Shown here: positions 368 to 62,624 of the stretch, in pieces | Layout: each line of letters opens with the position of its first letter | Numbering within the stretch: the first letter of the stretch is position 1 | Assembly (NCBI GenBank): GCA_017633115.1 | Contig: JAGBPZ010000071.1 | Span: forward strand, 1-64,000 | DNA length: 64,000 nucleotides | Reading direction: 5' to 3' | Origin: Erysipelotrichaceae bacterium | GTDB taxonomy: Bacteria; Bacillota_I; Bacilli_A; Erysipelotrichales; Coprobacillaceae | Made by a program: the position numbers and the translations under genes | The notes under the pieces: generated by a model | Database searches by the model: none | Told to the model about the DNA's origin: nothing | Seen by the model: only the letters and a program-made list of their open reading frames with translations

Positions 368-1369
368 CTATTTCATGTACTCCATGATATCTTTTGCGAA
401 TGGTTTAACACCTTTAACCGCATCTTTAGCGACGATTTCTGCTTCGTCATTATCTAAGTCAATCAGTACATAGCGATCATTACCCATGCCCAATTCCTTC
501 ATGTATGATAACTGACGTAAACCATGTCTAGTCTCGATACGTTCTACCAGATCTTTATGATCAGCTTCTTCTAATGCATAAACCAGATCAACAGAAGCTG
601 CATCAATGGCAAGAATGTCTTTAGAAGCTAAGATACCAATATTTGGTGTGACGACTGGTGCAGCAGCTACACCTTCACAGTCACAAGATACTGACATATT
701 TCTAAGAACATTGACAAAAGTAATATGGTCGCCAAAGAAATCTACAGTCGCTTTTGATGATTCAGCGATACGTTCCATCAATTCTTCCTGAGCGATACTC
801 CATTTATCATCACTACCCTCGCGTTGATGGATTGCTTTTTTACCAATTCGGCCATCTGCACAACCAATACCGATATTTTTGTTTGAACCGCCAAAGCCAC
901 CCATTGCGTGACCTTTAAAGTGTGTCAAAACAAACATTGAATCATAATCGATCATTGTTTTACCAACAGTCATATGATCGAACCATTTACCACCTTTAAC
1001 TGGCAAATCAACTGTACCTTCAGCATCCATGATATCAACATCACAGAAAGTCCAACCGTTGATTTCTAATGTTTTACGATGATCTTCCGTTGTATAACGA
1101 TCACCATTATAGAATGTATTTGTTTCAACTATAGTTGCATCTGGCAAATCATCTTCAATAAGGCTTCTGACCCAAGGTCTAGGAATAATATTAGGACCTT
1201 TTGGTTCACCTGTATGTAATTTGATAGCTACTTTACCTGTCATGTTATCATTGACTTTACGATAAGCTTTTTTTAAGCCTTCAGCAGATAAGTCTCTTGT
1301 GAAGTAAACAACTGATGTATCACCTGTACGCTGGTCAAATGGTACATATAAACTTTTTTCTTTTCGCAT
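368..1369 (-). CDS. DUF362 domain-containing protein
   Basis: 333 aa. The sequence matches the DUF362 family: a central region around residues 140-175 contains VLTHFKGHAMGGFGGSNKN and a conserved GCADGRIGKKAIH segment. DUF362 proteins often carry two C-terminal 4Fe-4S motifs; this one has none, only two Cys close together in NMSVSCDCEG plus one in GCADG. It is probably soluble, since there is no signal peptide. Its function is unknown. It is separated by 80 bp and a hairpin from larC, so a link to nickel-cofactor enzymes is only contextual. Confidence 0.75.
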   Translation of the reverse strand: MRKEKSLYVPFDQRTGDTSVVYFTRDLSAEGLKKAYRKVNDNMTGKVAIKLHTGEPKGPNIIPRPWVRSLIEDDLPDATIVETNTFYNGDRYTTEDHRKTLEINGWTFCDVDIMDAEGTVDLPVKGGKWFDHMTVGKTMIDYDSMFVLTHFKGHAMGGFGGSNKNIGIGCADGRIGKKAIHQREGSDDKWSIAQEELMERIAESSKATVDFFGDHITFVNVLRNMSVSCDCEGVAAAPVVTPNIGILASKDILAIDAASVDLVYALEEADHKDLVERIETRHGLRQLSYMKELGMGNDRYVLIDLDNDEAEIVAKDAVKGVKPFAKDIMEYMK

Positions 1370-9197: not shown

Positions 9198-9622
9198 ACG
9201 TCAGATCTGAATGACAGTGTAAGTGTCGTTCCGTCCTTTCCAGACTGGATGTCAAATTCATCAGACACACGAAGAATATTTGGCAATCCCATACCTGCAC
9301 CAAAACCCATAGCACGTGCTTTTTCACTTGCAGTTGACCATCCCGGTGTTAACGCTTTTTCGATATCTTCAATGCCTGGTCCTGGGTCTTTAAAGACCAG
9401 TTTCACAGTTCCGTCATCAAAGATATCCATTGTAATATCGCCACCCCAGGCATGAATCAGCATGTTAATTTCTGACTCATAACTGGCGACTGCAATACGT
9501 CTCATCACTTTTGGACTAAAGCCGATTTTCTTGAGTGTACGCTTGATATCTGAACTGACACGTCCTGCAGATGCATAGTCGTCACGTTCAACGACATAAT
9601 CTTGATGAAAAACAACTTCCAT
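9194..9622 (-). CDS. RsbT/anti-sigma-like HATPase of the hyd operon
   Basis: 142 aa. A single HATPase domain of the anti-sigma-factor/RsbT class: N-box ASYESEINMLIHAWGG, DPGPGIEDIEKAL, and the Gly-rich GFGAGMGLPNI. It could be a Ser/Thr protein kinase or an ATP-dependent switch. It overlaps the neighbouring genes at both ends, so the three middle genes are probably made in fixed ratio. The pairing with a DRTGG protein just upstream recalls partner-switching modules, but no STAS partner is visible. Confidence 0.8.
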   Translation of the reverse strand: MEVVFHQDYVVERDDYASAGRVSSDIKRTLKKIGFSPKVMRRIAVASYESEINMLIHAWGGDITMDIFDDGTVKLVFKDPGPGIEDIEKALTPGWSTASEKARAMGFGAGMGLPNILRVSDEFDIQSGKDGTTLTLSFRSDV

Positions 9623-59912: not shown

Positions 59913-59942
59913 TTGTCAAAAAGAAGCGCATGTGTTTATAAT
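59913..59942 (+). promoter_or_regulatory. Promoter of the panT-coa operon
   Basis: -35 TTGTCA (59913-59918), 18 bp, -10 TATAAT (59937-59942). Transcription would start at about 59948, the first base of the leader helix. Confidence 0.78.
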
Positions 59943-59947
59943 AAGGG

Positions 59948-60050
59948 TGTATTGAGAACGTACATTTGGTGGCTACCATCTGGAGTCAACAGTATTGACC
60001 CAATACAAATTTTTAGGAAGCGTCGTATTGTTACAAACGACAGTGGAGGA
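59948..60050 (+). ncRNA. Candidate riboswitch-like leader of the panT operon
   Basis: The first seven bases TGTATTG (59948-59954) pair with CAATACA (60001-60007) to close a three-way junction whose arms are TGGT/ACCA and GTCAA/TTGAC. CAATAC can alternatively pair with GTATTG at 60025-60030. That alternative would break a GTCGT/ACGAC hairpin (60022-60041) next to the ribosome site GGAGG. Two exclusive helices are the hallmark of a switch. It matches no riboswitch I know. The ligand might be pantothenate or a CoA-pathway compound, inferred from the genes. Confidence 0.5.
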
Positions 60051-60055
60051 AACAA

Positions 60056-60652
60056 ATGAATAAACGTAAAACACAGAACCTGACGTATCTCGCATTCTTC
60101 GGAGCCTTAGAAGCCGTTATGATGATGGTACCGTTCTTAGGATTTATCCCAATTGGTCCCTTAAGAGCAACGACATTACACATTCCGGTCATTATCGCCG
60201 CTATCGTTCTCGGACCTGAAGATGGTTGTATCGTAGGTTTTATTTTTGGTCTTTTTTCACTCATCAATAATACTGTCAATCCAACTGTGACATCATTCGT
60301 CTTTTCACCATTTATCAGTGGTAACATCCTGAGTGCTGTCATCGCGATTGTGCCAAGAGTGATGATTGGGTTCGTGAGTGGTCATATCTATCAATTATTG
60401 AAAGACCGCTTCGACACCATTGCGATGTCAATCAGTGCCTTATGTGGCGCCTTGACAAATACCGTTCTCGTTCTTGGTGGTATTTATCTTCTCTTTGGCA
60501 GTAGCTATGCCACTGCCATCGGCAAAAGTTTTGAAGCATTGTTACCTTATTTCATCACAATTATTACCACCCAAAGCTTACTTGAAGCTGTGGTTGGCAT
60601 GTTCATCAGCGTAGCAGTGTCTAAAGCCCTGCTGCATATCATAAGGAAGTGA
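60056..60652 (+). CDS. panT: ECF transporter substrate-binding (S) component, probably pantothenate-specific PanT
   Basis: 198 aa with about six membrane helices. The N-terminal LTYLAFFGALEAVMMMVPFL carries the small-residue helix used by S components to dock EcfT. PanT assignment comes from the operon: it is followed directly by coaBC and coaX, which use pantothenate. The energising EcfA/EcfT genes are elsewhere. GGAGGAAAC precedes the start; a structured leader lies upstream. Confidence 0.78.
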   Translation: MNKRKTQNLTYLAFFGALEAVMMMVPFLGFIPIGPLRATTLHIPVIIAAIVLGPEDGCIVGFIFGLFSLINNTVNPTVTSFVFSPFISGNILSAVIAIVPRVMIGFVSGHIYQLLKDRFDTIAMSISALCGALTNTVLVLGGIYLLFGSSYATAIGKSFEALLPYFITIITTQSLLEAVVGMFISVAVSKALLHIIRK

Positions 60653-60657
60653 TTGGT

Positions 60658-61848
60658 TTGAGCAAAAAAATCATTATCGGTATTACCGGCTCTATTGCGG
60701 CATTTAAAACAATTCAATTTATCAGTGATTTAACAAAAGAAGACTATGAAATCGAAGTCATTCTCACTGAAGCAGGAAGTCGTTTCGTGACCCCTGTTTC
60801 TATTCAGGCACTCACAAAAAAGCGTGTTTATATCGATGTTTTTGATGATGATCCAGGCACGATTACCCATGTTGATCTTGTCAAGGACGCCGATGCCTTT
60901 CTCGTCATGCCAGCTTCAGCAACAACGATTGCCAAACTGGCTCATGGTATCGCTGACAATATGTTGACAGCTGCCTACTTGGCGGCAACATGTCCAAAAG
61001 TCATTGCCCCTGCAATGAATGTCCATATGTTTGAAAATCCAGTGACTCAGCGCAATCTTAAGCAGCTTGTCGATGATGGGGCTTTGATCGTTGATCCAGA
61101 TGTTGGCTTACTCGCATGTGGCGATGTCGGCAAAGGTAAACTCGCTAAGGCCAGTGATGTCAAGATGATTCTCGAGTATGCGATGAGCGAACATCCATTA
61201 AAAGGATATAAAGTTGTTGTCAGTGCTGGACCAACCCAGGAAGCCATTGACCCAGTTCGCTTCATTTCAAATCATTCATCAGGCAAAATGGGTTATGCAA
61301 TTGCCAAAGCCGCCTTTACTTTAGGAGCAGATGTCACACTTGTCAGTGGCCAGGTCGCTTTATCACCATTGCCATTTATTAAAAATGTCTCAATCACATC
61401 AGCTCAGGATCTGTACGAAGCTATGATTGAAGAAGCTCAGGATGCTGACTTTATCATCATGTCTGCAGCTGTTGCCGACTATACTCCAGCCACGACGGCA
61501 ACCGAAAAAATCAAAAAGAATGATTCTGATTTAACTCTATCGCTGAAGAAGACAAAGGATATCCTTTATGAATTAGGTCAGAAAAAGCCAAAGGGACAGA
61601 TTATTTGTGGCTTTGCGATGGAAACAACTGATTTGATCAGCAACGCCACTAAAAAATTGACAAAGAAAAATGCCGACCTGATTATCGCCAACAGTCTCCG
61701 TACTGCAGGAGCAGGCTTTAAAACTGATACAAATATCGTCACAATTATCGATCAAGATGGTATCCGACCTTTAGAAATCATGTCTAAAGATGAACTCGGA
61801 TTCGTCATCTTAGCAGAATGTTTGAAGAAAAGAGAGGCACAATCATGA
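60658..61848 (+). CDS. coaBC: Bifunctional phosphopantothenoylcysteine decarboxylase/synthetase CoaBC
   Basis: 396 aa from a TTG at 60658, eight bases after AAGGAAG; a GTG at 60649 is too close to it. The CoaC half: GITGSIAAFKTIQ, active His in ITHVDLV, APAMNVHMF, and the ACGDVGKGKLA clamp. The CoaB half starts about residue 185: SAGPTQEAIDPVRFISNHSSG and a KIKK Lys near residue 290. It makes 4'-phosphopantetheine from 4'-phosphopantothenate. Confidence 0.95.
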   Translation: MSKKIIIGITGSIAAFKTIQFISDLTKEDYEIEVILTEAGSRFVTPVSIQALTKKRVYIDVFDDDPGTITHVDLVKDADAFLVMPASATTIAKLAHGIADNMLTAAYLAATCPKVIAPAMNVHMFENPVTQRNLKQLVDDGALIVDPDVGLLACGDVGKGKLAKASDVKMILEYAMSEHPLKGYKVVVSAGPTQEAIDPVRFISNHSSGKMGYAIAKAAFTLGADVTLVSGQVALSPLPFIKNVSITSAQDLYEAMIEEAQDADFIIMSAAVADYTPATTATEKIKKNDSDLTLSLKKTKDILYELGQKKPKGQIICGFAMETTDLISNATKKLTKKNADLIIANSLRTAGAGFKTDTNIVTIIDQDGIRPLEIMSKDELGFVILAECLKKREAQS

Positions 61849-62624
61849 TTCTCGTTATTGACATTGGAAACACTAATATTACAGTAGGTATTTATAATGA
61901 TCAGGACCTTGTCAGTAGTTTCCGTCTGACAACCCGTGTCCATCGTACATCTGATGAATACGGTCTCTTGTTGATTGACTATTTGACAGCACGTCACATC
62001 GACAGCAAGGCTGTTGAAGATGTTATTATCAGTTCCGTCGTTCCAAAAATCAACTACTCATTCTCAAGCGCGATTATAAAATATTTTGACATCAATCCCC
62101 TTTTCGTTGGTCCTGGTGTCAAATCTGGTATCGCAATCCATGTTGATTCACCTAAATCATTAGGTGTTGACCGTCTTGTCGATGCTGCCGGTGCTTATTA
62201 TACCTATGGTGGACCATGTCTGATTATTGACTTTGGTACAGCGACAACATTTGATGTCATCAATGAAAAAGGCGTATTCCTTGGTGGTTCAATCACACCT
62301 GGTATTGGTATCGTCTCAAATGCCCTTTCATCAATGGCAGCACAGCTTCCAGAAATCGAAATCATGAAACCTGAACATGCCATCGCTAAAAATACCATTA
62401 CGGCGATGCAGTCTGGTCTTGTCAATGGCTATATCGGACAGACCGAATATCTGATTCAAAAAATTAAAGAAGAATATGGTTCCGATATGCGTGTCATTTC
62501 CACCGGTGGTTATGGTAAAATGATTACTAGAGAAACAGATATGATTGATATCTTCGATGGTGATCTTACATTTAAGGGTTTAAAAATCATTTACGATAAA
62601 AATAAAACAAATAAGGAGAAATAA
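61845..62624 (+). CDS. coaX: Type III pantothenate kinase
   Basis: 259 aa. Phosphate-binding DIGNTNITVGIY, the GVDRLVDAAGAY segment and DFGTATTFDVIN are the CoaX signatures. It phosphorylates pantothenate, the first CoA step, and is insensitive to CoA feedback, which makes control at the level of the operon leader plausible. The start at 61845 overlaps the coaBC stop (ATGA). Confidence 0.95.
   Translation: MILVIDIGNTNITVGIYNDQDLVSSFRLTTRVHRTSDEYGLLLIDYLTARHIDSKAVEDVIISSVVPKINYSFSSAIIKYFDINPLFVGPGVKSGIAIHVDSPKSLGVDRLVDAAGAYYTYGGPCLIIDFGTATTFDVINEKGVFLGGSITPGIGIVSNALSSMAAQLPEIEIMKPEHAIAKNTITAMQSGLVNGYIGQTEYLIQKIKEEYGSDMRVISTGGYGKMITRETDMIDIFDGDLTFKGLKIIYDKNKTNKEK

Follow-up and report, generated by a model that had tools for sequence, protein, structure and literature searches.

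Comparison with relatives indicates that the panT-coaBC-coaX operon in the window (the whole stretch of 64,000 nucleotides of Erysipelotrichaceae DNA that was analysed) is preceded by a real, conserved cis-regulatory RNA, and this leader is very probably a pan-type element. It is thereby identified as a previously unrecognised form of the pan RNA and not as a novel class. Comparison also reveals that its second hairpin (hairpin B) shares one motif with the hairpins in the Rfam pan RNAs, and that this motif tracks pantothenate/CoA genes. Since the window scores below the threshold of the Rfam family RF01749 (gathering threshold 36.2 bits), we call the leader pan-type rather than a member of that family as now defined. 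The first-pass annotation of this DNA had proposed a structured cis-regulatory leader with a pathway signal on a pantothenate-uptake/CoA operon, which is supported: the genes encode a PanT-like S component, then CoaBC and CoaX. Its failure to match the leader to a known class has been overtaken, for the architecture is that of pan even though the RF01749 model misses the window.

Coordinates of the leader and of the operon that it precedes are collected in Table 1. The genes follow the leader in the order panT-coaBC-coaX, and panT was present in 58 of 60 related genomes searched. The solved structure that best matches its product, 4rfs_S, is that of ECF-PanT. The TATAAT box is found at the same place ahead of helix P1 in the relatives (22 leaders of the same family). 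Given the promoter, transcription is expected to start at about 59948-59950, which agrees with the earlier proposal of a start at the 5' strand of a 7-bp helix.

Table 1. Features of the panT leader and operon in the window
Feature	Position	Strand	Basis or remark
Promoter TTGTCA-18 nt-TATAAT	59913..59942	+	near-consensus, 11/12 consensus positions match
P1 5' strand UGUAUUG	59948..59954	+	arm covariation in 22 leaders; fold
P2 5' strand GUAC, weak	59960..59963	+	pairs with GUAU 59992-59995; fold of P1 domain
Hairpin A G-UGGCU-A-CC AUCU GG-AGUCA-A-C	59969..59990	+	bulged A at 59975 and 59989
P1 3' strand CAAUACA	60001..60007	+	arm covariation in 22 leaders
Hairpin B C-GUCGU-A-UUG UUA CAA-ACGAC-A-G	60021..60043	+	bulged A at 60027 and 60042
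Shine-Dalgarno (SD) GGAGG of panT	60045..60049	+	1 nt (U) past hairpin B; spacing kept in nearly all relatives
panT, ECF transporter S component for pantothenate	60056..60652	+	PF12822; closest solved relatives 4rfs_S (E 2e-23), 6zg3_C
coaBC	60649..61848	+	TIGR00521, 438 bits
coaX, type III pantothenate kinase	61818..62624	+	TIGR00671 and NF009855 above cut-off; PF03309

The promoter-proximal helix P1 (7 bp) encloses hairpin A, and in the predicted fold P1, P2 and hairpin A are stacked into one rod. This fold speaks against the three-way junction proposed before, and hairpin A takes up the GUCA that a second junction hairpin would require. Short P2-like helices are visible by eye in relatives, for example UUAGC/GCUAA in locus L003. 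Hairpins A and B have a common plan: an outer pair is followed by a bulged A in the 3' strand, a helix of five pairs, a bulged A in the 5' strand and an inner stem. As seen in the alignment, the five-pair helix thus carries a bulged A after each of its strands, which gives the motif a pseudo-twofold symmetry. The hairpin that the first-pass annotation placed beside the GGAGG of panT was found there as hairpin B, strongly covarying; hairpin A, the two bulged As per hairpin and the architecture common to both had been overlooked.

Folded as a single sequence, the leader does not stand out (z -0.9); the case for its structure rests on comparison. For most leaders both hairpins are predicted to form by default, with a probability of about 0.9 or more. 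The window leader is the exception (0.43 for hairpin A, 0.14 for hairpin B), which is probably due to a chance complementarity between CAATAC and GTATTG. The SD is predicted to be about 55% unpaired on average in the leaders of relatives.

We compared 22 homologous panT leaders from the same family; an alignment that took in four distant leaders placed hairpin A wrongly by one column and was set aside. The -10 box, the helix at the start and the two hairpins recur throughout. Over 15 pairs, 98.8% of the 330 cells are paired (against 86.8 +/- 1.0 in shuffles), and changes on both sides occur at 11 pairs, with 58 double-change cells against 16 +/- 4 in shuffles. Not one of 500 shuffles matches these values, and slid controls drop to 25-59%. 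Within the same 22 leaders the paired fraction is 97.4% for hairpin A, with double changes at five of its seven pairs, and 100% for hairpin B. With a strict scanner, a pair of bulged-A hairpins that do not overlap is found in the window leader and in 17 others of the 22, whereas the rate in shuffles of these leaders is 0-0.7%. For the P1 arms, the mean duplex energy is -10.6 kcal/mol within a genome against -5.9 +/- 0.54 when arms are swapped between genomes, a difference reached in 0 of 2000 permutations.

The sampled genomes are phylogenetically related and the shuffles consequently overstate significance. The SD-proximal hairpin can however be followed further, in a set of 40 drawn from panT leaders of Lachnospiraceae (L031-L042) and from the class of the window. 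Here 99.7% of cells pair, double changes occur at all nine pairs and both bulged As are invariant. Such changes at every one of the nine pairs, in several families, do not hang on shuffle significance alone. The Lachnospiraceae panT leaders themselves have a single pan-type hairpin before the SD (for instance ACAGU-A-UCCC cau GGGA-ACUGU-A-A), and Rfam flags none of the four that were scanned (L031, L032, L038, L041).

The pan motif, RF01749, was described upstream of panB, panC and panD in 2010 (Weinberg et al., PMC2864571). A search of Rfam, which the first-pass annotation named as a check, matched no family to the window: RF01749 gave nothing even at E 10 and permissive thresholds yielded chance-level matches only. 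Among the sampled genomes, RF01749 was found in 0 of 149 from the window's phylum and 0 of 296 from its class, and in 98 of 250 taken around a Lachnospiraceae genome. Weak RF01749 matches in five Lachnospiraceae genomes had no pantothenate synthesis gene at the match and were taken as chance.

The hairpin plan had been written down from panT leaders before any pan sequence was compared. The RF01749 hairpins, GG-GCAGU-A-UC..GA-ACUGC-A-CC and CCG-CUUGG-A-UCC..GGA-CCGAG-A-CGG, follow the same plan as those in the window, and a scanner based on this plan gives 44 matches in 2.8 kb of RF01749 RNA versus 32 in 90 kb of flanking sequence on the same strand. The tandem model R1 has no significant match to clostridial pan RNAs, for which reason homology was tested with single hairpins instead. 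The covariance model R2 was built from the 40 SD-proximal hairpins with no RF01749 locus in training. Run over 90 RF01749 loci, it yields 17 matches from 92.8 kb (E 5e-4 for the best, the E-values of R1 and R2 being rough) and 13 from a further 223 kb; all 30, from 316 kb around RF01749 RNAs, fall inside these RNAs. In the window, which belongs to the training set, R2 matches hairpin B (60020-60044, 26.3 bits, E 1.8e-4) and misses hairpin A. No second convincing R1 or R2 site was found in the window's genome; a weak R2 match at 9198-9218 (+) of the window (E 0.31) is probably chance. Elsewhere in the class, R2 matches with E 0.0003-0.01 in L179, L189-L191, L193, L196 and L198 have no adjoining pathway gene and were treated as false.

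The genes under these RNAs extend from synthesis to uptake. RF01749 RNAs lie upstream of operons with a panG-like DUF2520 gene, panB, panC and panD, but in Clostridia they also stand before birA-panT-coaX (L055/L078, L102), panT (L116, L121) and panT-coaX (L132; in L134 a little downstream). In L116 the second hairpin adjoins the panT SD as it does in the window (GACCGGGAUGGGAGG). At L124 (G412:C21, 339-2146) an RF01749 RNA lies ahead of a PanS-like transporter gene (NF047939, below its cut-off) and panC-panD; this suggests that the pan regulon includes precursor import. At L088 (G576:C27, 237-2759) the RNA is followed by an OPT-family transporter and a type II pantothenate kinase (NF009842 above cut-off), and we predict the OPT-family protein to be a new pantothenate or pantetheine importer. 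One RF01749 match (L079, G385:C110:69692-69787) had none of the tested pathway genes downstream.

In the window's class, the confident R1 matches (those with E <1e-4, and most of those with E <0.01) lie before panT except one in genome G007, where panT and coaBC-coaX are at separate places and each has its own element. In the element before coaBC-coaX (L147, G007:C119:34018-34089), a terminator-like stem (GCCAUUU...AAAUGGC UGUUUU) comes after hairpin B in place of an adjoining SD. Another genome has two panT copies with a tandem element on each (G213:C1, 2144291-2147229; L148, L162). Single-hairpin leaders also occur (e.g. L186, L197), the hairpin being 26 nt long. One of the window's class, before panB (L164, G227, about 1457-1490 of the reverse complement), has a single SD-adjoining hairpin, GCUAAG-A-UCC guuc GGA-CUUAG-A-C U GGAGG. 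In the window's family, R2 has a match (E 0.001) ahead of a panD gene that is divergent from the panT operon (L016, G027, 642-669, minus strand). The panB gene is absent from the window's own genome (G000) and exceeds its cut-off in only 2 of 120 genomes of the class. With a class nearly devoid of panB, the signal is probably pantothenate or a compound downstream of it (phosphopantothenate, CoA).

We consider it likely, by inference, that the leader serves feedback repression of translation. A terminator is often found at the end of clostridial pan RNAs, and its 5' arm has an alternative partner in the strand that follows the bulged A of the second hairpin; a rough search found this alternative at at least 18 of 80 loci (for example CGGAAGGU / ACCUUUCG / UCUGAAAGGU in L065). 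A stabilised second hairpin would then favour termination. In the window's class the hairpin touches the SD, and stabilising it should hinder ribosome binding. Both platforms would thus repress when bound, the sign expected for feedback by a pathway product. In most relatives both hairpins are predicted to form by default with the SD still about 55% unpaired, so that blocking is expected from a bound factor and not from base pairing alone.

In the model that we tend to favour as a whole, a tandem pan-type RNA mediates factor-bound feedback repression of panT-coaBC-coaX. At high levels of a product of the pathway, which is most likely pantothenate, phosphopantothenate or CoA, hairpins A and B would be bound by a factor. 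It would most likely be a homodimeric RNA-binding protein that recognises the pseudo-twofold pair of bulged As. Bound factor would fix hairpin B, block ribosome entry at the adjoining GGAGG and lower expression of the operon; in relatives with a terminator, the fixed hairpin would keep the strand from forming an antiterminator. We lean towards a protein over direct binding of a metabolite. Single-hairpin leaders imply a small recognition site, and together with the variable loops and the pseudo-twofold symmetry of the aligned hairpins they modestly favour a homodimeric protein. CoaX was tried as the RNA-binding partner, that is, as a self-regulating kinase. It occurs in 104 of 107 pan-positive and 45 of 53 pan-negative genomes, and with so high a base rate and three positives lacking CoaX its co-occurrence decides nothing.

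A true riboswitch is possible, if on the unlikely side: the tandem hairpins, or B alone, would bind pantothenate, phosphopantothenate or CoA with the bulged As as the pocket, and the ligand would stabilise B against the SD. The unpaired As are strictly conserved, as is the U-A/C-G step that follows the 5' bulge, which would fit such a pocket; the gene context is solely pantothenate/CoA, and tandem arrangements are familiar from cooperative riboswitches. No CoA-sensing riboswitch is yet known, an absence that Breaker's review calls puzzling (PMC9971707). However, very few unpaired nucleotides are conserved, the apical loop varies freely and 26-nt hairpins stand alone in some leaders, while tandem simple stems have been judged suggestive of a dimeric protein site (Weinberg et al., PMC2864571). 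The bolder proposal that the pan-type hairpin is a natural RNA sensor of CoA (or phosphopantothenate), a bulged-A aptamer of some 26 nt which, alone or paired, would govern how pantothenate is made, imported and phosphorylated across Bacillota, seems doubtful to us.

Two further readings were weighed. The leader might have arisen by convergence, as an independent panT element that merely resembles pan RNAs through its bulged-A hairpins. Tandem-level models indeed fail to recognise each other, and hairpin A is unlike the first pan hairpin in sequence (GAC...GG vs AUC...GA). Yet the held-out R2 matches (30/30) lie inside pan RNAs, the regulon is the same, and there are intermediates: the Lachnospiraceae panT hairpin ACAGU-A-UC...GA-ACUGU nearly equals pan H1, GCAGU-A-UC...GA-ACUGC. 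This makes convergence improbable. Least credible, and in our view very improbable, is the switch suggested by the first-pass annotation, in which CAAUAC (60001-60006) pairs by turns within P1 and with the 5' arm of hairpin B. The repeats on which it drew are borne out in the sequence (GTATTG at 59949-59954, 59992-59997 and 60025-60030, CAATAC at 60001-60006 only), the complementarity is an exact 6 nt, and the competing pairing reduces the predicted hairpin B in the window leader. Across the 22 leaders, however, the linker complements hairpin B no better within than between genomes (own -2.66 vs swapped -2.72 kcal/mol, p = 0.61). Of the two helices that the first-pass annotation wished to see tested for covariation, P1 thus covaries (see above) and the CAATAC/GTATTG pairing does not, and the mutually exclusive structures proposed are not conserved in these leaders.

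The pan RNA has been an orphan since 2010, and a literature search, with subscription papers outside its scope, found no functional study of it. Its signal was previously pointed to by synthesis genes alone. A pan hairpin on an uptake/CoA operon, in a class almost without pantothenate synthesis, makes pantothenate or a later compound the likely signal; RF01749 RNAs before panT, before panS and before a transporter with a type II pantothenate kinase shift it likewise. The recognition unit is at the same time reduced to one 26-nt hairpin, a concrete candidate for the CoA-sensing RNA whose lack has been called puzzling (PMC9971707). The form found in panT leaders widens the pan gene-control family, and the regulon predicts new pantothenate transporters such as the OPT-family protein.

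Summarizing the likeness to the described pan motif, both have tandem hairpins with two conserved bulged As each, one per strand and five bp apart, both lie in the 5' untranslated region of pantothenate genes, and a common model finds hairpin B. The window leader differs in having its first hairpin on the P1-P2 rod, in a second hairpin that adjoins the SD and not a terminator, and in the diverged sequences of its linker and hairpin A. Its genes also serve uptake and CoA assembly (panT-coaBC-coaX), whereas those described are panB, panC and panD.

Vitamin riboswitches precede the genes of several ECF S components (TPP-thiT, FMN-ribU, THF-folT). With these the window leader has in common its position before an S component and a logic of vitamin-dependent repression, but their aptamers are large and rich in conserved positions, their ligands are known, and none matches it. 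Protein operators with bulged nucleotides are known as well: the PyrR-binding hairpin, the MS2 coat operator and the eukaryotic iron-responsive element. They too are short hairpins with one or more bulges a fixed number of pairs apart, and they block translation or steer termination. Their proteins, however, also read a conserved apical loop, whereas in the window hairpins the loop is free to vary and a pseudo-twofold axis relates one bulge to the other.
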